Shown here piece by piece: positions 46,182 through 63,883 of a stretch of 64,000 nt of DNA. A program made the position numbers and the translations under genes. Each line of letters starts with the position of its first letter. Position 1 is the stretch's first letter. The stretch is from Thalassospira lucentensis. Its GTDB lineage: Bacteria; Pseudomonadota; Alphaproteobacteria; Rhodospirillales; Thalassospiraceae. The notes below the pieces were generated by a model. It worked only from the letters and a program-made list of their open reading frames with translations. It ran no database searches and was not told the DNA's origin. The stretch covers positions 2,825,001-2,889,000 of the forward strand of contig NZ_CP136684.1 of the NCBI RefSeq assembly GCF_032921865.1. Reading direction: 5' to 3'.

Positions 46182-46211
46182 TTGCGAAAGCAGACCCATT
46201 TGACCTATATA
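46182..46211 (+). promoter_or_regulatory. Promoter of ssrA
   Basis: -35 TTGCGA at 46182-46187, 18-base spacer, -10 TATATA at 46206-46211. Transcription would start near 46217, just before the first RNA hairpin. Confidence 0.6.
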
Positions 46212-46216
46212 GGGGC

Positions 46217-46560
46217 TGTCGGGGCAACCCGACTATGGCGTTACACGACTTGGCAGAATAGACATTACGGACCCGGGGGCGGTACCCGGCGGCTCCACCA
46301 ACTCTCATCTATCTGACTTCGTCCGACTCAGGCGAAGATGTTGGGGCCGAAATAGGATCGACGTGTGTAGTAAAAGCCTCTGTTGGCGCTCGGCATGGTA
46401 CCACCGTTATCGGGCTAATGTTTGTAAACGCAAACGACAACAATGCTCCGGTTGCTGTTGCCGCCTAAGCGGTACTAGCACCAAAGCGAAATTCCGATTG
46501 CCGGGAGCGGTAGTCTGGTGGGGGATGGGGCACCTAGCAACAGAACGCCCCGCTCTTGTA
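46217..46560 (+). ncRNA. ssrA: Two-piece (circularly permuted) tmRNA
   Basis: The tmRNA rescues stalled ribosomes and tags their products. The gene is permuted, as in alphaproteobacteria. The acceptor piece comes first, opening with a GTCGGG-GCAA-CCCGAC tetraloop hairpin (46218-46233) and ending in GGCGGCTCCACCA at 46300. A spacer of about 42 bases (46301-46342) is removed. The coding piece starts GGGGCCG at 46343, pairing with CGGCTCC of the acceptor and keeping the G3-U pair recognised by alanyl-tRNA synthetase. The tag frame runs 46430-46468: Ala-Asn-Asp-Asn-Asn-Ala-Pro-Val-Ala-Val-Ala-Ala, stop. The 3' end near 46560 and 5' end are estimates. Confidence 0.9.
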
Positions 46561-56851: not shown

Positions 56852-58852
56852 GTGGCGTTAAAGGATTTGTACCGGAGCATTGTCGGGACGTTCCGCGTTC
56901 GGGAAGATCAACCCGAACTGGTTCGCGCGCAGGTCAAGGCCCTCTCCCGTCAAATCCCGTTACTTTACATCCTGCTTTTTGCCAACGCGGTCGCGCTGGC
57001 TTTCACGCATTACGGAACCGCACCTGACTGGATGACGGTTTATATTCCAGCGGTTCTGGGGATTGTCTGTCTGATCCGTGGGCTTGCATGGATGCGCTTG
57101 CGTGATACGGCAAATGATTTTGCCAGTGCGGTGCTGCATTTGCGCCGTATCCGCATTCTGGCCGCAGTCATCAGCGTCGTCTTCACCGCCTGGGCGATCA
57201 AGATGTTTGGTTATGGTGATGCCTATCAACAGGGGCATGTCGCCTATTTCATCTCGATCACCGTGGTTGGGTGCATCTTCTGTCTATTGCATTTTCCCCC
57301 GGCTGCTCTTTTGGTCGTCATCATCGTTCTTGGGTCTTTCATCCTGCATTTCGGGTCTACGGGGAACGAGGTTTACGTCGCGATTGCGGCCAATATGGCG
57401 ATGGTATCCTTGATGATTGTCCAGATCATCCGAAGCTACTACGCGGCGTTTTCCGGATTGGTGGAATCGCAGATCGATCTGGAAAAGCAGCACACCAAAA
57501 CCATCGAGCTTTCCAACCAGAACCGTGAACTGGCTTTTCGTGATGCCTTGACCGGTCTTTCCAACCGCCGCGCATTCTTTTCCCATCTTGACGAAGCGGT
57601 AGCACGCGCAAAGGACGGCGGGCGTTTTGCGGTTGCGATGATTGATCTGGACGGATTCAAGCCGGTCAATGACGTGCATGGCCATCCGGCTGGCGATGAT
57701 GTGCTGGTCAAAGCCAGCGCCCGCTTACGCGACATTCTGGGACCGGATGTCTTGTTGGCGCGACTGGGTGGGGATGAATTCGGTGTGATCCTTGACGATA
57801 TTACGGATGCCGCGGAACTGATCCGTATCGGACGGGAACTTTGCGGAACGCTTAATGATCCGTTCGAGGTTGGCGGGGGAACGGTGCAGCTTTCCGCATC
57901 GCTTGGTTTTGCGACCTACCCGGCGGTGGCGCGTAAACCCAACGCCCTGTTCGAGCGTGCCGATTTCGCGCTTTACTACGCCAAGAAAAACATGCCGGGC
58001 CATCCGGTTTTGTTCGCCGCCCATCACGAAACCCTGATCCGCCATGACAGCCAGATCGAACAGGCCCTGCGCAAGGCCGATCTGGAAAGCGAATTGTCGA
58101 TCCACTATCAACCGGTTTTTGATTTGCATAGCGGCAAACTGCATTCGATCGAGGTGCTTGCCCGGTGGGATAACGACAAAATGGGGCGGGTTTCACCCGA
58201 AATGTTTTTCCCGGTGGCCGAAAAAACCGGACAGGTCGGAACTTTGTCGACGATCCTGTTCCAGAAGGCCCTGAAATCCATGATCGCCTGGCCGCAGGAT
58301 GTACCGCTGTCGTTTAACCTGTCGGCCCGCGATATAGTTCTGCCCGACATGGCGCACTGGCTGATTGATCAGATCAAATTCTTTGGGATTGATCCGGGAC
58401 GTCTGACATTTGAAGTGACGGAAACGGCTTTGCTGCGCGATTTTGTGTCGGCCCGTGCCAGCATTCGCTATCTGCGCCGCCACGGGGCAAAGGTTGCGCT
58501 GGATGATTTCGGGATCGGGTATTCCAGCCTGCGTTATGTTCATGAACTGGAATTCGACTGTCTGAAGATTGATCGCAGTTTTATCGAACCGATTGTAACC
58601 AGTGAACGCAGTCAGCGGATTGTCAAAACCGTAATCGACATGTGCGATAATCTGGGCACGGATTGTGTGATTGAGGGGATCGAAACACCCGAACAGCGTG
58701 ACGAGATTCTGCGTCTTGGCGGGCATCTGGCGCAGGGATATTTCTTTGCCCGGCCATCGGCCACGATTGATTGGGACGCGTTACCCAATGTGGCAGGTCT
58801 GGATCGGGCAGATCCACCATCAGCGCCCCGACCGGCAGACGCAAAATCATAA
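56852..58852 (+). CDS. Membrane-bound GGDEF-EAL c-di-GMP enzyme
   Basis: A 666-residue protein. An N-terminal membrane region (about 36-195, roughly five to seven helices) leads into GGDEF (about 225-390, with RLGGDEF at 305-311) and EAL (about 400-650). The expected inhibitory RxxD site before GGDEF is replaced by GPDV. The EAL motif reads EVLARW, keeping the Glu and Leu; DDFGIGYSSLRYVHELEFDCLKID and VIEGIETPEQ are intact. It may both make and degrade c-di-GMP. The start is GTG at 56852 after GGGGAAAG. Confidence 0.9.
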   Translation: MALKDLYRSIVGTFRVREDQPELVRAQVKALSRQIPLLYILLFANAVALAFTHYGTAPDWMTVYIPAVLGIVCLIRGLAWMRLRDTANDFASAVLHLRRIRILAAVISVVFTAWAIKMFGYGDAYQQGHVAYFISITVVGCIFCLLHFPPAALLVVIIVLGSFILHFGSTGNEVYVAIAANMAMVSLMIVQIIRSYYAAFSGLVESQIDLEKQHTKTIELSNQNRELAFRDALTGLSNRRAFFSHLDEAVARAKDGGRFAVAMIDLDGFKPVNDVHGHPAGDDVLVKASARLRDILGPDVLLARLGGDEFGVILDDITDAAELIRIGRELCGTLNDPFEVGGGTVQLSASLGFATYPAVARKPNALFERADFALYYAKKNMPGHPVLFAAHHETLIRHDSQIEQALRKADLESELSIHYQPVFDLHSGKLHSIEVLARWDNDKMGRVSPEMFFPVAEKTGQVGTLSTILFQKALKSMIAWPQDVPLSFNLSARDIVLPDMAHWLIDQIKFFGIDPGRLTFEVTETALLRDFVSARASIRYLRRHGAKVALDDFGIGYSSLRYVHELEFDCLKIDRSFIEPIVTSERSQRIVKTVIDMCDNLGTDCVIEGIETPEQRDEILRLGGHLAQGYFFARPSATIDWDALPNVAGLDRADPPSAPRPADAKS

Positions 58853-58914: not shown

Positions 58915-59143
58915 GATGTCGGTTTCCCGGTTAATCTTCCCGCAACCCAATCAGGGTATTCTTCTGGTCATCCGGCATGGCAGATAGTGGCATATGCCCG
59001 CGTCGCGCGCCGGACTGCACCGGATACCGATTTTGCGGCCGATCTAAGCAATTGAAACGACTCGTTGTTTTTATTGGCTATTGCAAGGATTCTGGCGAGT
59101 CGTTACGATTCGCCATCTCAGACGGGAACAGGGCTTCGGACAG

Positions 59144-59737
59144 ATGTCAGGCCAGACGCACATTTCATCCCAGATACCGGCGGTCACGATTGATGGCATT
59201 GATCTGGCGCCTGAAATTCGCACCCGTCTTCGCAATCTGATTGATACCCTGCCTGATCAACCCGCTCGATTACGGGTAATGGGGCATGTTCTGCTGGATA
59301 TGGGGCTTGGCAGTCTTGCACTTGATGCGTTTGGACGGGCCCTGTTGCTGGATGATCTTGATCCAGCAACCCATCTGGGACTGACCCGGACCTATTTGCA
59401 GAACGGGGCGCGTGATACCGCGCTCGAACATCTTGAAATCGCAATCAGCCTGCGGCCCGATGCCCGTGAATTGCGTGTGGTCGCCGCCGATCTTGTCGGT
59501 TGCCGCGACAGGATGCGTGCCTTCAATCAACTGGGCGCGGTGTTATCAGCTGATCCGGATCATGCCGGTGCCCGAAAGGGACTGGCTGCATTGATCCGCT
59601 CGGTAATCACCAGCCGCATCCAGGAAGACAAATCTGCGACCTGGAAGGTGGCTGCTGATACTGCGCGCGTCTGGGGTTTGCAGGATCATATGCCTGCACA
59701 GGAACTTTCCCCACCACAGCCGTGGTTCCTGAATTAA
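59144..59737 (+). CDS. TPR-like repeat protein
   Basis: A 197-residue helical protein with two to three tetratricopeptide-like units (ALDAFGRALLLDDLDPATHLGLTRTYLQNGARDTALEHLEIAISLRPDARELR then a partly degenerate copy). It has no signal peptide or catalytic motif. TPR proteins act as protein-binding scaffolds. ATG at 59144 (MSGQTHISS). An upstream frame start at 59081 is weaker. It overlaps the end of the convergent phosphatase gene by four bases. A role with that signalling protein is possible but unproven. Confidence 0.7.
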   Translation: MSGQTHISSQIPAVTIDGIDLAPEIRTRLRNLIDTLPDQPARLRVMGHVLLDMGLGSLALDAFGRALLLDDLDPATHLGLTRTYLQNGARDTALEHLEIAISLRPDARELRVVAADLVGCRDRMRAFNQLGAVLSADPDHAGARKGLAALIRSVITSRIQEDKSATWKVAADTARVWGLQDHMPAQELSPPQPWFLN

Positions 59738-61800
59738 CGGTTTTCCGGGGTTTGTCGGTTGGGTTGCAATGACACCACGGTAAAGTCGTCATGCAGTTTG
59801 ACCGGTGCCCGATCCATGAACTGGTCGGCAAGGTGGGATGCCAGATCGGGCATGCCGCCTGTTTCCGAAATAATATCCTGCACCAGATGCAGCAGTCGTT
59901 CACCTTCAAGCAGCGCGCCATCATCAAGCACCGTTTCAATCAGGGCATCGCTGTATAGCAGCAGGAAGTTATCAATACCAAAGGCGGTTTCACGCGTTTC
60001 ATATCTGGCATCGCGAATAACACCAAGCGGAACGCCAGAGCCATCAAGAAACGTGGTCGAGCCGGTTTTGACATTGCCAAGAACCGGCGACGTACAAGCC
60101 GCACTGGCATAGCGGAATGTTTCGGCAGTACGGTTTATAATGCCATACAGCATGGTCGCATATTGCCCAACCGGCAGCAGCCCCTTGAGGTGGCGGTTAA
60201 GGGATTCCAGATACGCGCCCGGATCATCGTCATGTCGGTCATCCGACCAGATCAGGGAGTGAAGGCGAAATGTATTCAGCGCTGCACCAAGACCGTGACC
60301 GGCGAAGTCAACGATGTAAACACCAAGCCTGTCGTCATCAATCGGGGCCAGTCCCCACATATCACCGCCAAGTTCGGATGACATCTGGAAGCTGGCGCTG
60401 ATGGTCATGCCATAATCAAGACCGATACCACGATACTGTTCCGCCTTGGGTATCAGCATTTCCTGCATGTCGCGCGCCATTTCCAGTTCGGATTGCGTGC
60501 GTTCCTGATAGGCCTGCAGTTGTTTGACCAGCAGGCGGTTTTCAAGATGGATGCGCGTGCGTGCGATCATTTCCGCCTTGTTCAGCGGTTTCAGAATAAG
60601 GTCGGTTGCACCGTCTTCGAAAATACGGGTGCGACCTTCGTTTTCTTCAAGGGCTGTCTGGGCGATGATCGGGGTTTCGGCAAATGAAGGGTCGGCGCGC
60701 AAAACCTTGCAGACCTCATAACCATCCATTTTCGGCATGATAATATCAAGGATGATCAGGTCGGGATTATGTTTGTTTGCCTGCTCCAGGGCATCCTCGC
60801 CATCCTTGGCAAAAACCAGATTGGTAAAGCCATCCGATCGCAGATAGGACGCGATGATTTCGCGCGAGATCATGGTGTCGTCGGCAATCAGGATCGTGGC
60901 ATCGCGCGGGTTACGCAGGTCTGCTTCGCCCGATGCACGTTCAGCCGCTTCCAGTCCGGCGGCAAAAGTCGTATTCAACGGTAGGGATGCCGCAGTGTCG
61001 GGCGCAAAGGTAAGCCGGATTGTCCGTCCACCGCGATCAAAGCTGACATCGTGGCAAAGGCTTCTGATCAGGGGCAGGCCACGACCAAAGGTGGATTCCG
61101 CACCGGGCAGTTTGGGAACTGGCGTTTCATCGGGTGGGACAAAGCCGCTTCCCTGATCATTGATCGAAATTTCGACATTGCCATTACGTCGCTTTTTCGC
61201 GGTCAGCATGATCACCCGCCCGCCATAGACCGGTGATGCCAGGCGGCGTGCTGTTTCCTCACCCAGTTCGTTAAAGCGATCCATCGACAGATGGCCGGTC
61301 GTATTCATTTCCAGATTGCCGTGGATCATTGAATTGGCGAAGGCTTCCTGAACCGCCATTTCGACCGTCGGTGCGATCGTGTCGTGAATGATACCGCGGT
61401 GGCGAAGGGCCGTGACAAATTTGCGTGCCATCGGCAATTGATACGCACTTTGTGTCGACATACAGACCAGAAGGTCCCAGTTGGCGCCTCGTTTGGCCGT
61501 TCGCAACGGGCCAAGGTCGACCAAATCAAGCCCGTCATAGCATTCGACAAAGTAATTGCAGTTAAGACGGACCAGTGCGCCCAACCATTCCCGGCCGGTT
61601 TCGGACGGAATCAGGCATAACTGATATCGGTTGCTGTGAGGAAAATCTTCGGGGCTTCGGCCAAAGAAAAGTTCCGCATGAGCACCGGCTCCATCCCCGA
61701 AGATATGCCGACCATCAAGCACTTGTGCCGCCCGCGCGCGGTCAAGCGGTTCGGCAACGGCAACAAATGGGCGTGGCTGAACCTCGCCGGTTGCAGGCAT
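59734..61800 (-). CDS. SypE-like kinase-REC-phosphatase fusion
   Basis: A 688-residue protein built as one chain of a partner switch. An N-terminal ~135-residue region of unknown fold is followed by an RsbW-type HATPase kinase (about 136-270; N-box EAFANSMIHGN with N156, G-box DQGSGF). Then a receiver (about 300-420, Asp352 in IILDIIMPKMDG) and a PP2C/SpoIIE phosphatase (about 440-685; GGD with Asp480, DFAGHG with Asp498, late HDDFTVV). V. fischeri SypE has this order and both phosphorylates and dephosphorylates the STAS protein SypA, depending on receiver state. Its STAS partner here is the gene just upstream. Confidence 0.88.
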   Translation of the reverse strand: MPATGEVQPRPFVAVAEPLDRARAAQVLDGRHIFGDGAGAHAELFFGRSPEDFPHSNRYQLCLIPSETGREWLGALVRLNCNYFVECYDGLDLVDLGPLRTAKRGANWDLLVCMSTQSAYQLPMARKFVTALRHRGIIHDTIAPTVEMAVQEAFANSMIHGNLEMNTTGHLSMDRFNELGEETARRLASPVYGGRVIMLTAKKRRNGNVEISINDQGSGFVPPDETPVPKLPGAESTFGRGLPLIRSLCHDVSFDRGGRTIRLTFAPDTAASLPLNTTFAAGLEAAERASGEADLRNPRDATILIADDTMISREIIASYLRSDGFTNLVFAKDGEDALEQANKHNPDLIILDIIMPKMDGYEVCKVLRADPSFAETPIIAQTALEENEGRTRIFEDGATDLILKPLNKAEMIARTRIHLENRLLVKQLQAYQERTQSELEMARDMQEMLIPKAEQYRGIGLDYGMTISASFQMSSELGGDMWGLAPIDDDRLGVYIVDFAGHGLGAALNTFRLHSLIWSDDRHDDDPGAYLESLNRHLKGLLPVGQYATMLYGIINRTAETFRYASAACTSPVLGNVKTGSTTFLDGSGVPLGVIRDARYETRETAFGIDNFLLLYSDALIETVLDDGALLEGERLLHLVQDIISETGGMPDLASHLADQFMDRAPVKLHDDFTVVSLQPNRQTPENR

Positions 61801-61802
61801 TG

Positions 61803-62108
61803 TCAGTCTTCCAGTTTGAACAGAGTGTCGAACCGCGCAACTTCAAGCATGCGTTTGACCTGTCCCTGCGCGCCTTTGAGTATGACCGTGGCACGGGACT
61901 TTTCACCTTCGTCACGTGCAAGCAGCAGCATGCCAAGCCCAGCTGAATCGATAAACTCGACCCCGGAAAGGTCAAGAATTTGTATTTCGGCCTCCTGACT
62001 GCGGATTTCTTCGATCAGTTTGCGAAAACTGGAATGGTCCCCAAATGTAAATCGGCCATTCAGTTCTACTTTGATCGTGTCGCCGGATTTTTCGGTGGTG
62101 TAATTCAA
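61803..62108 (-). CDS. STAS-domain anti-sigma-factor antagonist, SypA-like
   Basis: A 101-residue single STAS protein: KVELNGRFTFGDHSSFRKLIEEI, LDLSGVEFIDSAGLGMLLLA with Ser55 at the phosphorylation site, and a Leu-rich C-terminal helix. Single STAS proteins are switched by phosphorylation of that Ser. It ends two bases before the SypE-like gene on the same strand and must be translated with it. By analogy with SypA (Ser56), phosphorylation by the SypE-like kinase should turn it off and dephosphorylation on. Confidence 0.9.
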   Translation of the reverse strand: MNYTTEKSGDTIKVELNGRFTFGDHSSFRKLIEEIRSQEAEIQILDLSGVEFIDSAGLGMLLLARDEGEKSRATVILKGAQGQVKRMLEVARFDTLFKLED

Positions 62109-62236
62109 GCCGTGATACTCCCGGATGCGAGCAATGTTACTGAAACTATGCCTTTTTTAACCAAAAGCTGATTTGTATGGGATAACGAATCAGCTGACTA
62201 CAGGTTAGCAGTTGTGCATGTAATGTCACTATCGGT

Positions 62237-63883
62237 ATGGTTGCCGATAGATGGTTAGATCGGGATGCGAACCACAAAATGCCAGATCAGGCACGCATTG
62301 TTGTTGTTGAAGACACCTTGTCGCTCGCGCGGGTGTATCAGGACTATTTGCGTGCGGACGGTCACAAGGTCGAGCATGTCGTCAACGGTCGGGATGCGAT
62401 CAAAAGGCTGCGCAGTGATCCGCCAGACGTTCTGGTCCTTGACCTGATTCTGCCAGACATGGATGGTCGGGAAGTTCTGCGTGCTGCCCATCAGGCCGCG
62501 CCGGAATGCAAAGTGGTTGTGATCACAGCGCACGGTTCGGTCAATATCGCGGTCGAGGCGATGCGTGACGGGGCGTGGGACTTTCTTTTGAAGCCTTTCA
62601 CCGCTGACAAACTTCGCGTCACGGTCAGTGATGCGCTTGAAGGCCGGGCCGCGGTGAATGATGCCGGAAAAAAAACGGACAGCGAAAATATCACCGACGA
62701 GATGTATTTTGACATCATTGGCGGATCGGACACGATGCATGATATTTATCGCATCATTGAAAACGCAGCCCCCAGCCGGGCAACGGTTTTCATTACCGGA
62801 GAGTCAGGTACCGGCAAGGAACTTGCCGCCGAAGCAATTCATCGCCGGTCCGAGCGCGTCAACGAACCGTTCATTCCCCTGAACTGTGGTGCGATCCCCA
62901 AGGATTTGATGGAAAGCGAGATTTTCGGTCATGTCAAAGGTGCGTTTACAGGTGCCGTAATTGACCGCGAAGGGGCTGCCCACAGGGCCGCTGGTGGAAC
63001 GCTGTTTCTTGATGAAATTTGCGAAATGGACCTTGATCTGCAGACCAAGCTTCTGCGCTTCATCCAGACCGGGACGTTCCAGAAAGTCGGTGGCAGTTCG
63101 ATTGAAAGCGTTGATGTAAGGTTTGTGTGCGCAACAAACCGCGATCCGCTTGAAGAAGTACGTGCCGGACGTTTCCGCGAAGATTTGTATTATCGTCTTC
63201 ACGTGATTCCGCTTCACATGCCACCATTACGTGATCGCGATGATGATATCCTGCAGATCGCCAATTTCTATCTGCAACGCTTCACCCGTGAAGAGGGACG
63301 TGATTTTCAACGGTTCAGCCCGGACGTGGCCGCTTTGTTCGCGCGCTATGCCTGGCCGGGCAACATCCGCCAGCTTCAGAACATCATCCGCAACATTGTG
63401 GTACTGAATAACGGCACCGAAGTCACCATGTCGATGGTGCCCCGCCCGGTTAACAGCGGCACGGACGAAGAACGTTTTGGGTCGGGATCCATCGAAGCAC
63501 CACCACCCCATCCGGTTGTGTCAAACGGGTTGGAAGATGCCGGTCGATTTTGGGAAGGTGACCCGGATGCGTTGGCCTTTTTGGCCGGTGCGCGCAACCT
63601 GCGCGATGATACAGAAGTACATCATATGGATACGACCTCGGCTCCGGCTCCGGCCATGATTGGCGCGGATGGCCGGTTCGCGATGGCATCGATGCCCGCC
63701 GGGTTGCCGATGGACAGCCGTTATGCCGGAATCAAACCGCTCTGGCTGGTGGAAAAGCAGGCGATAGAAGAAGCGATTGCGCGATGCGGCGGGTCAATCC
63801 CGCGTGCGGCGGATGCACTTGGCGTCAGTCCGTCGACCATTTATCGCAAAAAGCAGGCCTGGGAAGAAAACGGGGCGAAATAG
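62237..63883 (+). CDS. Sigma-54-dependent response regulator, SypG/LuxO-like
   Basis: A 548-residue NtrC-type activator: receiver (about 18-135, Asp69 in VLVLDLILPDMDG), AAA+ domain with Walker A GESGTGKE (188-195), GAFTGA (235-240), and Walker B GGTLFLDE, then a Pro/Ala-rich linker and a Fis-type helix-turn-helix (PRAADALGVSPSTIYRKKQ). It opens sigma-54 promoters when phosphorylated. It is divergent from the STAS/SypE pair by 128 bp, the same gene set as the V. fischeri syp signalling group. Start ATG 62237 or 62278. The upstream ribosome site is poor. Confidence 0.9.
   Translation: MVADRWLDRDANHKMPDQARIVVVEDTLSLARVYQDYLRADGHKVEHVVNGRDAIKRLRSDPPDVLVLDLILPDMDGREVLRAAHQAAPECKVVVITAHGSVNIAVEAMRDGAWDFLLKPFTADKLRVTVSDALEGRAAVNDAGKKTDSENITDEMYFDIIGGSDTMHDIYRIIENAAPSRATVFITGESGTGKELAAEAIHRRSERVNEPFIPLNCGAIPKDLMESEIFGHVKGAFTGAVIDREGAAHRAAGGTLFLDEICEMDLDLQTKLLRFIQTGTFQKVGGSSIESVDVRFVCATNRDPLEEVRAGRFREDLYYRLHVIPLHMPPLRDRDDDILQIANFYLQRFTREEGRDFQRFSPDVAALFARYAWPGNIRQLQNIIRNIVVLNNGTEVTMSMVPRPVNSGTDEERFGSGSIEAPPPHPVVSNGLEDAGRFWEGDPDALAFLAGARNLRDDTEVHHMDTTSAPAPAMIGADGRFAMASMPAGLPMDSRYAGIKPLWLVEKQAIEEAIARCGGSIPRAADALGVSPSTIYRKKQAWEENGAK

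Follow-up and report, generated by a model that had tools for sequence, protein, structure and literature searches.

A predicted partner-switching gene group in Thalassospira beside a LuxO-family regulator, and a qrr-like RNA gene as the regulator's candidate target

The gene group and its conservation

Near the end of a 64,000-nucleotide stretch of the 4.73-Mb genome of Thalassospira lucentensis (contig NZ_CP136684.1, positions 2,825,001 to 2,889,000; the window in what follows) lies a gene group that combines a predicted partner-switching module with a sigma-54 response regulator. A STAS gene of the RsbV/SpoIIAA type (61803..62108, minus strand; 101 aa, TTG start; Pfam STAS E 5.5e-16; TIGR00377 59.9 bits, cut-off 53.45) stops two bases before the start of a gene for a 688-aa fusion protein (59734..61800, minus strand). 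By Pfam the fusion joins an RsbW-type serine kinase domain (HATPase_c_2, residues 121-264; 61009..61440), a receiver (Response_reg or REC, residues 303-414; 60559..60894) and a SpoIIE/PP2C phosphatase domain (residues 488-679; 59764..60339), in that order and behind an N-terminal domain without an assigned fold (residues ~1-110; 61471..61800). Divergently, across an intergenic region of 128 bases (62109..62236), runs the gene for a 548-aa sigma-54 response regulator of the LuxO/SypG family (62237..63883, plus strand), with Response_reg, Sigma54_activat and HTH_8 domains, a GAFTGA motif and a LuxO-like helix-turn-helix (HTH). Beyond the fusion lie, likewise on Pfam evidence, a convergent TPR protein (59081..59737, plus strand) and a GGDEF-EAL protein (56852..58852, plus strand). 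The initial annotation of this DNA had described these genes in the same terms, and the coordinates, lengths and strands of the STAS gene, the fusion and the regulator were verified; it had gone on to propose that the circuit is that of SypA, SypE and SypG in Vibrio fischeri and that its target is a polysaccharide locus elsewhere.

Conservation was followed across 29 Thalassospira genomes, including this one and a second genome of the same species; these are all the family members compared, and all belong to the one genus. Each of the 29 neighbourhoods carries a homologue of the fusion and keeps the order YafY-type gene, GGDEF-EAL, TPR, fusion, STAS, sigma-54 regulator, aminotransferase and PhyH-type gene. 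All 29 STAS proteins retain DSAG within the motif F-I-D-S-A-G, whose Ser55 (codon 61944..61946, minus strand) is the predicted phospho-acceptor. Intact in 29/29 fusions are the kinase N-box (E152/N156), HGN160-162 and the G1 and G2 boxes, the receiver residues D352 (the phospho-Asp) and K404, and the PP2C residues D480, D498, D618, D671 and D672; D308 is kept in 28, with E in one. Loss of the STAS serine, of the kinase boxes or of synteny had been named as grounds for regarding the pairing as coincidental, and no such loss was seen. Because the catalytic and phosphorylation sites are kept, partner-switching chemistry on Ser55 is plausible from sequence.

Within the fusion, mean pairwise identity is 0.84 for the receiver, 0.74 for PP2C and 0.69 for the kinase; the linker is the most variable part (0.26) and the N-terminal 99 residues come next (0.46). 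Residues 1 to ~120 match no Pfam family, as had been noticed at first, but the length of ~135 residues then given to this region was too great: it is ~120 by Pfam, or ~100 by a kinase profile built from relatives, which begins near residue 100. Profile-profile comparison of the N-terminal domain with REC, STAS, kinase and PP2C gave no match. In many alphaproteobacterial relatives of the fusion, too, the kinase comes after an N-terminal stretch of like length.

Relationship of the fusion to SypE and to alphaproteobacterial modules

The fusion has the domain order of SypE, and the STAS protein is, like SypA, a single STAS domain with a predicted phospho-serine. For comparison, Vibrionaceae genomes were recognised by LuxO scores above the cut-off (8 of 398 genomes). 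Five Aliivibrio-type loci encode a SypE of 505-512 aa between SypD- and SypF-type genes, with SypA called in four of the five; gene order was the basis for assigning the genus as well as the names SypB, C, D, F and H. A sixth SypE locus, from a third genus (L185), encodes a protein of 541 aa, and SypE was absent from six regions around a SypG-like gene in one Vibrionaceae genus. Against three Vibrionaceae SypE proteins, two of the Aliivibrio type and that of L185, the fusion shows 22-25% identity and 59-74 bits, in alignments that also span part of the kinase, apart from that with L185, which covers REC and PP2C only. The window STAS protein is 26% identical to the SypA of L180 (33.5 bits). 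The kinase domain of SypE lies at residues 15-135 by Pfam (L180), compared with 121-264 in the fusion, and the SypE proteins examined have no counterpart of the domain that precedes the kinase here. N156 of the fusion may be compared with the conserved kinase asparagine of SypE, reported as N52 (PMC3610818).

Closer relatives of SypE occur in two other alphaproteobacterial genomes (G135 and G448), the only two matched by a SypE query at E<=1e-22 among 378 genomes of the phylum, with 4 candidates scored in each; the window's genome gave no match (4 of 51 candidates scored). Their proteins, at L188 and L189, score 167-218 bits against two Aliivibrio-type SypE, and the fusion itself reaches 78 bits and 25% identity with the SypE-type protein of L188. 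That alphaproteobacterial locus (G135:C65:6000-18837) carries SypA, B, C and D and, divergently, SypG, a second STAS gene, SypE and SypF (SypC 792 bits, SypE 212 bits); a syp-type cassette therefore exists in the class, distinct from the Thalassospira group. SypB, C, D and H had no match among the window genes or in the next 11 kb, which leaves the polysaccharide target without support there, polysaccharide genes not having been searched for elsewhere in the genome.

From the low similarity, the extra N-terminal domain and the reciprocal search, we judge that the fusion is likely, though not proved, to be non-orthologous to SypE, and that a separate fusion event, and not descent from SypE, most likely gave it the SypE-like layout, which is again likely rather than proved. 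The call is held at this level because the trees do not reject a clade of Thalassospira with SypE. In a 95-row PP2C tree six SypE rows make up one side of a branch (support 100, starred) and the SypE branch is very long. By approximately unbiased (AU) tests the shared clade was not rejected in the first tree test (AU p 0.918, the likelihood being higher with the two held together), with the kinase-domain tree (AU p 0.474) or with the 54-row PP2C tree (AU p 0.228, the free tree being better by 4.4 log units). SypE orthology is thus unsupported by similarity, yet the trees leave room for it. An orthologous SypA-SypE-SypG circuit, shared with vibrios by descent or transfer and controlling a polysaccharide locus elsewhere, seems improbable to us. 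It would fit the common domain order and residues, the SypG-family regulator next door, a nearby hybrid HisKA-HATPase-REC-Hpt kinase of this genome that matches SypF (208 bits) and the outcome of the AU tests, but it runs counter to the fusion's scores with SypE as set beside those of the G135 and G448 proteins, to the unmatched SypE query, to the extra N-terminal domain and to the lack of any SypB-D match among the window genes.

Kinship was found with the STAS, HATPase and REC-PP2C genes of the Alphaproteobacteria, an RbaV/RbaW/RbaY-like module, in comparisons made with class members and not with the Rhodobacter capsulatus proteins. At E<=1e-45 the fusion is matched in 47 of 385 class genomes, two of them Thalassospira (at most 3 candidates scored per genome). 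Many of these matches are ~400-aa REC-PP2C proteins, and the 13 strongest REC-PP2C matches without a matching kinase part gave 289-329 bits and 39-46% identity over REC and PP2C. Separate STAS, HATPase (167-279 aa) and REC-PP2C genes stand side by side in eight of 80 relative loci (L070 Telmatospirillum, L071 Magnetovibrio, L072 Rhodospirillaceae LM-1, L099 Niveispirillum, and L081, L087, L111 and L112), and genes of the RbaV/RbaW/RbaY type are reported to form one three-gene operon in some species (PMC3999984). The R. capsulatus system, compared by description, shares alphaproteobacterial STAS, HATPase and REC-PP2C components with the Thalassospira group but keeps as separate genes what is one fused chain here.

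Elsewhere in the class these domains occur in fusions of the orders kinase-REC-PP2C, REC-PP2C-kinase and REC-kinase-PP2C, so that in L123, L128, L132, L066, L130 and other fusions kinase, receiver and PP2C are joined in at least three orders. On the 95-domain PP2C tree the kinase-REC-PP2C label outside Thalassospira needs five changes, of which at least three are forced by starred branches, and the arrangement has therefore been gained or lost more than once. This tree included five of the Thalassospira copies and left out L074, L083, L084, L121, L129 and L133, which are near-copies or fragments. In the kinase-domain tree (53 rows) Thalassospira clusters with three stand-alone HATPase genes (support 86, not starred). 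The 54-row PP2C tree combined 35 alphaproteobacterial rows hand-picked from the 95-row set with five new outside rows, L151 and two alphaproteobacterial SypE relatives; here one branch (support 80, not starred) sets Thalassospira and the 35 alphaproteobacterial rows apart, and another (support 98, starred) does so for SypE and its two alphaproteobacterial relatives. A kinase, a receiver and a PP2C domain reportedly also make up HsbR of Pseudomonas aeruginosa, which is said to act on the STAS protein HsbA with a domain order that differs from that of the Thalassospira fusion.

Two further observations concern these relatives. STAS and/or REC-PP2C genes follow an apparent chemotaxis cluster, judged by gene sizes, in L073, L088, L095, L098, L101 and L106, with an MCP domain confirmed by Pfam only at L088:6485-7573; this suggests that such STAS/REC-PP2C switches may receive chemosensory input. 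Full kinase-REC-PP2C fusions without a recognised adjoining STAS gene occur in L030, L064, L067 and L068, each with another gene close behind, which in L030 (from a 1.5-Mb genome) and L068 is an RNA methyltransferase by Pfam.

The sigma-54 regulator and a conserved qrr-like RNA gene

The best family of the regulator is NCBIfam LuxO (NF041946), at 650.8 bits and thus below the curated cut-off of 800, with NtrC next (393.7). With two other sigma-54 regulators as outgroup it groups with both LuxO and SypG, and its HTH is of the LuxO type, so that the SypG-like nature first ascribed to it holds at the level of the LuxO/SypG family; a 37-row regulator tree divides Thalassospira, LuxO and SypG into three separate groups (support 99, 100 and 100, all starred). 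It scores 545-561 against LuxO, 470-495 against SypG of the syp loci and 521 against the SypG of L185, and this closer relation to LuxO is a further point against an orthologous Syp circuit. The HTH, VSPSTIYRKKQAW, differs little from the one in LuxO of L136, VSPSTIYRKLQTW, and the regulator is the sole LuxO-model match of the genome at E<=1e-150 (4 of 63 candidates scored). Set beside V. fischeri SypA-SypE-SypG(-SypF), the Thalassospira group shares the STAS protein with its phospho-serine, the kinase-receiver-PP2C order and the nearby sigma-54 regulator of the LuxO family; it differs in the low identity of the fusion to the three SypE proteins and its extra ~100-aa N-terminal domain, in the absence of syp polysaccharide genes from the window and in a regulator that falls outside the SypG and LuxO clades. 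Residues, domain order, regulator family and synteny of the circuit first proposed stand, and its SypE orthology and polysaccharide target are unsupported.

The group might also be an ordinary RbaV/RbaW/RbaY-type switch beside an unrelated sigma-54 regulator with no common signal, a possibility that we take seriously while leaning against it. Among 72 non-Thalassospira loci a gene with strong similarity to the sigma-54 part is found only in L069, L072 and L077, where the similarity is weaker (E 4e-57 to 6e-80), and 20 LuxO/SypG-like regions, in 18 of which the regulator was recovered, contained PP2C once and STAS never. Against such a chance neighbourhood stand the adjacency kept in all 29 Thalassospira genomes, though flanking genes are kept likewise, and the co-occurrence of both kinds of protein in the Aliivibrio-type syp loci and in L185, L188 and L189.

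Autoregulation of the cluster was considered and rejected. No conserved sigma-54 promoter was seen by eye in the 29-genome alignment of the divergent intergenic region, and a scan for LuxO-type sites together with a sigma-54 promoter found no pair in 28 of 29 cluster loci; the pair in the remaining locus (L193) is weak, its parts 240 bases apart. For the window's own genome the scan covered L171, which begins at window position 59500, with the upstream regions of the GGDEF-EAL and TPR genes outside it. As a positive control, eight Vibrio LuxO loci were given the same scan; seven showed a pair, and the reversed motif gave 0. Among 27 further LuxO-like loci eight had a pair (three places being counted twice among the 27, and one of these, L146/L236, belonging to the eight), as had two of the 12 syp loci, one of the two alphaproteobacterial syp-type loci and none of the 14 loci with weak model matches.

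In vibrios, from which such circuits are best known, LuxO has Qrr RNAs as its output. In V. fischeri, LuxO and SypG are both reported to activate qrr1, at overlapping sites matching TTGCAWWWTGCAA (PMC10162802). A search of the T. lucentensis genome for TTGCANNNTGCAA with at most one mismatch returned 165 places, compared with 54 for the reversed pattern. Nine places were inspected (the eight exact ones and one close pair of inexact ones), of which only one has two close sites in an intergenic gap. There, between called genes, lie two LuxO-type sites 23 bases apart (C2:4349934-4349969); behind them the minus strand carries TGGCACACCCTATGC, then ~109 nt and a hairpin terminator that has a T run. 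The qrr-like RNA gene so defined, with its sites, sigma-54 promoter and terminator (L239:3690-3970, equal to G000:C2:4349692-4349969, minus strand), lies 1.46 Mb from the regulator.

The RNA gene is matched in 29/29 Thalassospira genomes, with 23 of the main matches spanning the promoter-to-terminator part only. Its promoter was first spotted by reading the sequence by eye and then checked across the 29 genomes, in all of which TGGCA-N7-TGC keeps one fixed spacing, 12 nt ahead of the conserved RNA start GGACAGTTG; RNA length ranges from 107 to 117 nt. LuxO-type sites (at most one mismatch to TTGCAWWWTGCAA, within 200 bases upstream) are present in all 29 genomes, at least two of them in 25 and perfect ones in 20, whereas the reversed motif was found in 0/29 and shuffled upstream regions gave 0/580. 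The RNA folds with a z score of -3.7, terminator included, and covariation is slight (3 of 34 consensus pairs changed on both sides) because the RNA is nearly invariant. By their conservation across the genus, the RNA gene, its sites and its promoter are shown to be real.

The layout is of the qrr type and resembles the Vibrio LuxO-Qrr system in its LuxO-family regulator, enhancers of the form TTGCAWWWTGCAA, sigma-54 promoter ~12 nt before the RNA and ~100-nt RNA with a terminator. Rfam calls Qrr directly after the predicted promoter in both Vibrio loci submitted to it (L136 and L143), where the promoter is one base nearer to the Qrr model start than it is to the RNA start in Thalassospira. 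The Thalassospira RNA differs in being unlike RF00378, in that one such gene was found, and in its place far from the regulator and not adjoining it. We regard this RNA gene as the likeliest target of the regulator, which would bind the sites there and drive the RNA. That some other sigma-54 activator drives it is, in our view, unlikely: enhancer sites alone do not name the binding protein, but the site is the LuxO/SypG enhancer (PMC10162802) and the window regulator, with its LuxO-like HTH, is the one match to the LuxO model at the threshold above among the candidates scored.

No Rfam family reaches its gathering score in the RNA gene. A sub-threshold match to mmgR/suhB (RF00519) was seen in the 3' part of the RNA, terminator included (L274:1499-1566, minus strand; 29.3 bits, cut-off 41). 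By eye a TTG frame of 13 codons was spotted within the RNA; in L259 the RNA is two bases shorter inside this frame, an argument against its having a coding role. In other alphaproteobacteria that have a LuxO-like regulator, nearby sigma-54 promoters were also observed, accompanied by one to three sites of the LuxO type (L228:5750-6515, also L221, L229 and L230). The gene next to the promoter is haem-NO-binding (HNOB) by Pfam in L228 and, for one promoter of L221, a polysaccharide export/sugar transferase gene; judged by eye alone, the start peptides that follow additional promoters of L221, L229 and L230 resemble HNOB too.

A proposed two-branch circuit

As the best explanation of the whole we propose, with somewhat better than even confidence, an alphaproteobacterial-type partner-switch alongside a LuxO-family regulator that drives a qrr-like RNA. 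In the first branch, a STAS/HATPase/REC-PP2C partner-switch with its kinase and phosphatase fused as kinase-receiver-PP2C, the two activities would set the phosphorylation of STAS Ser55, by analogy with SypE, RbaV/RbaW/RbaY and the Rsb systems. The receiver would bias the balance between kinase and phosphatase, as has been proposed for SypE (PMC3610818), and free STAS protein would be the output, as has been argued for RbaV (PMC3999984). In the second branch the regulator, presumably fed by a histidine-kinase/Hpt relay, would act not on the cluster but on the RNA gene, switching it on through the LuxO-type enhancers and the sigma-54 promoter. Both receivers may read the same input or donor; V. 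fischeri offers the model, since sensor kinases there reportedly dictate how active SypG and SypE alike are (PMC12369376). For the joint arrangement, in which a LuxO-Qrr-type relay, its RNA unlike Vibrio Qrr in sequence yet constructed and switched alike, and the back-to-back STAS switch depend on one phosphorelay, so that a single signal governs an RNA arm together with a serine-phosphorylation arm, we find the case evenly balanced.

The GGDEF-EAL protein is a possible effector of the switch. Unphosphorylated STAS protein could bind this neighbouring enzyme and set c-di-GMP in the fashion of HsbA, which reportedly acts on HsbD in P. aeruginosa. We doubt that this is so. The reported HsbA/HsbD pair offers a precedent (PMC5085249, PMC6482189) and the GGDEF-EAL gene is syntenic in 29/29 genomes, but its proximity is weak evidence because the other neighbours are syntenic as well.

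Several results, in addition to the AU tests, weigh against the two-branch circuit. Synteny by itself does not single out the pairing of STAS gene and sigma-54 regulator, again because the other neighbours are syntenic too. A hybrid kinase with Hpt follows the PhyH-type gene in this genome and is unlikely to be a general phosphate donor, because it was recovered (>300 bits) in only 15 of 29 neighbourhoods. The Rfam Qrr model (RF00378) did not match the RNA in L239 or L247, and did find its positive control in L136 and L143. Outside Thalassospira no convincing copy of the RNA was found. A covariance model of it, under stricter filters, matched 2 of 337 class genomes, both Thalassospira. Among 30 chosen genomes nine had a match at E<=1, with 1.9e-24 for this genome and no better than 0.078 for the remaining eight; for 15 alphaproteobacterial genomes that encode a LuxO-like regulator, too, the best E was 0.078 or worse. 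A simple duplex test of 68 start regions brought out no convincing RNA target, and feedback of the RNA on the cluster was rejected on the ranks obtained there (sigma-54 gene 9, fusion 11, TPR 28, STAS 31, GGDEF-EAL 46). Finally, the strict sigma-54 pattern is not enriched genome-wide (22 places compared with 25 when read backwards).

At the level of titles and abstract openings, the literature yielded nothing on partner-switching in Thalassospira; the match for Qrr, LuxO and small RNAs in Alphaproteobacteria concerned a Caulobacter sponge RNA, and the circuit was absent among the matches listed for Thalassospira small RNA, for any two of LuxO, sigma-54 and Thalassospira, and for Qrr and LuxO outside vibrios. 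The main text of a paper on miRNA prediction in Thalassospira (PMC6413936) contains none of six pieces of the RNA. Elsewhere in the window, ARAGORN calls a tmRNA gene (tmRNA*; 46208-46559, plus strand) with the tag ANDNNAPVAVAA.

The case shows a way to tell a closer relative of SypE, as at L188 and L189, from a protein that merely has the same domain order. For the sigma-54 regulator, the RNA gene would be a concrete target in place of an unnamed polysaccharide locus. If the proposed circuit is true, an RNA of other sequence but the same layout serves it in another class than that of the vibrios, which would suggest that the regulator and its site can persist while the RNA is replaced.

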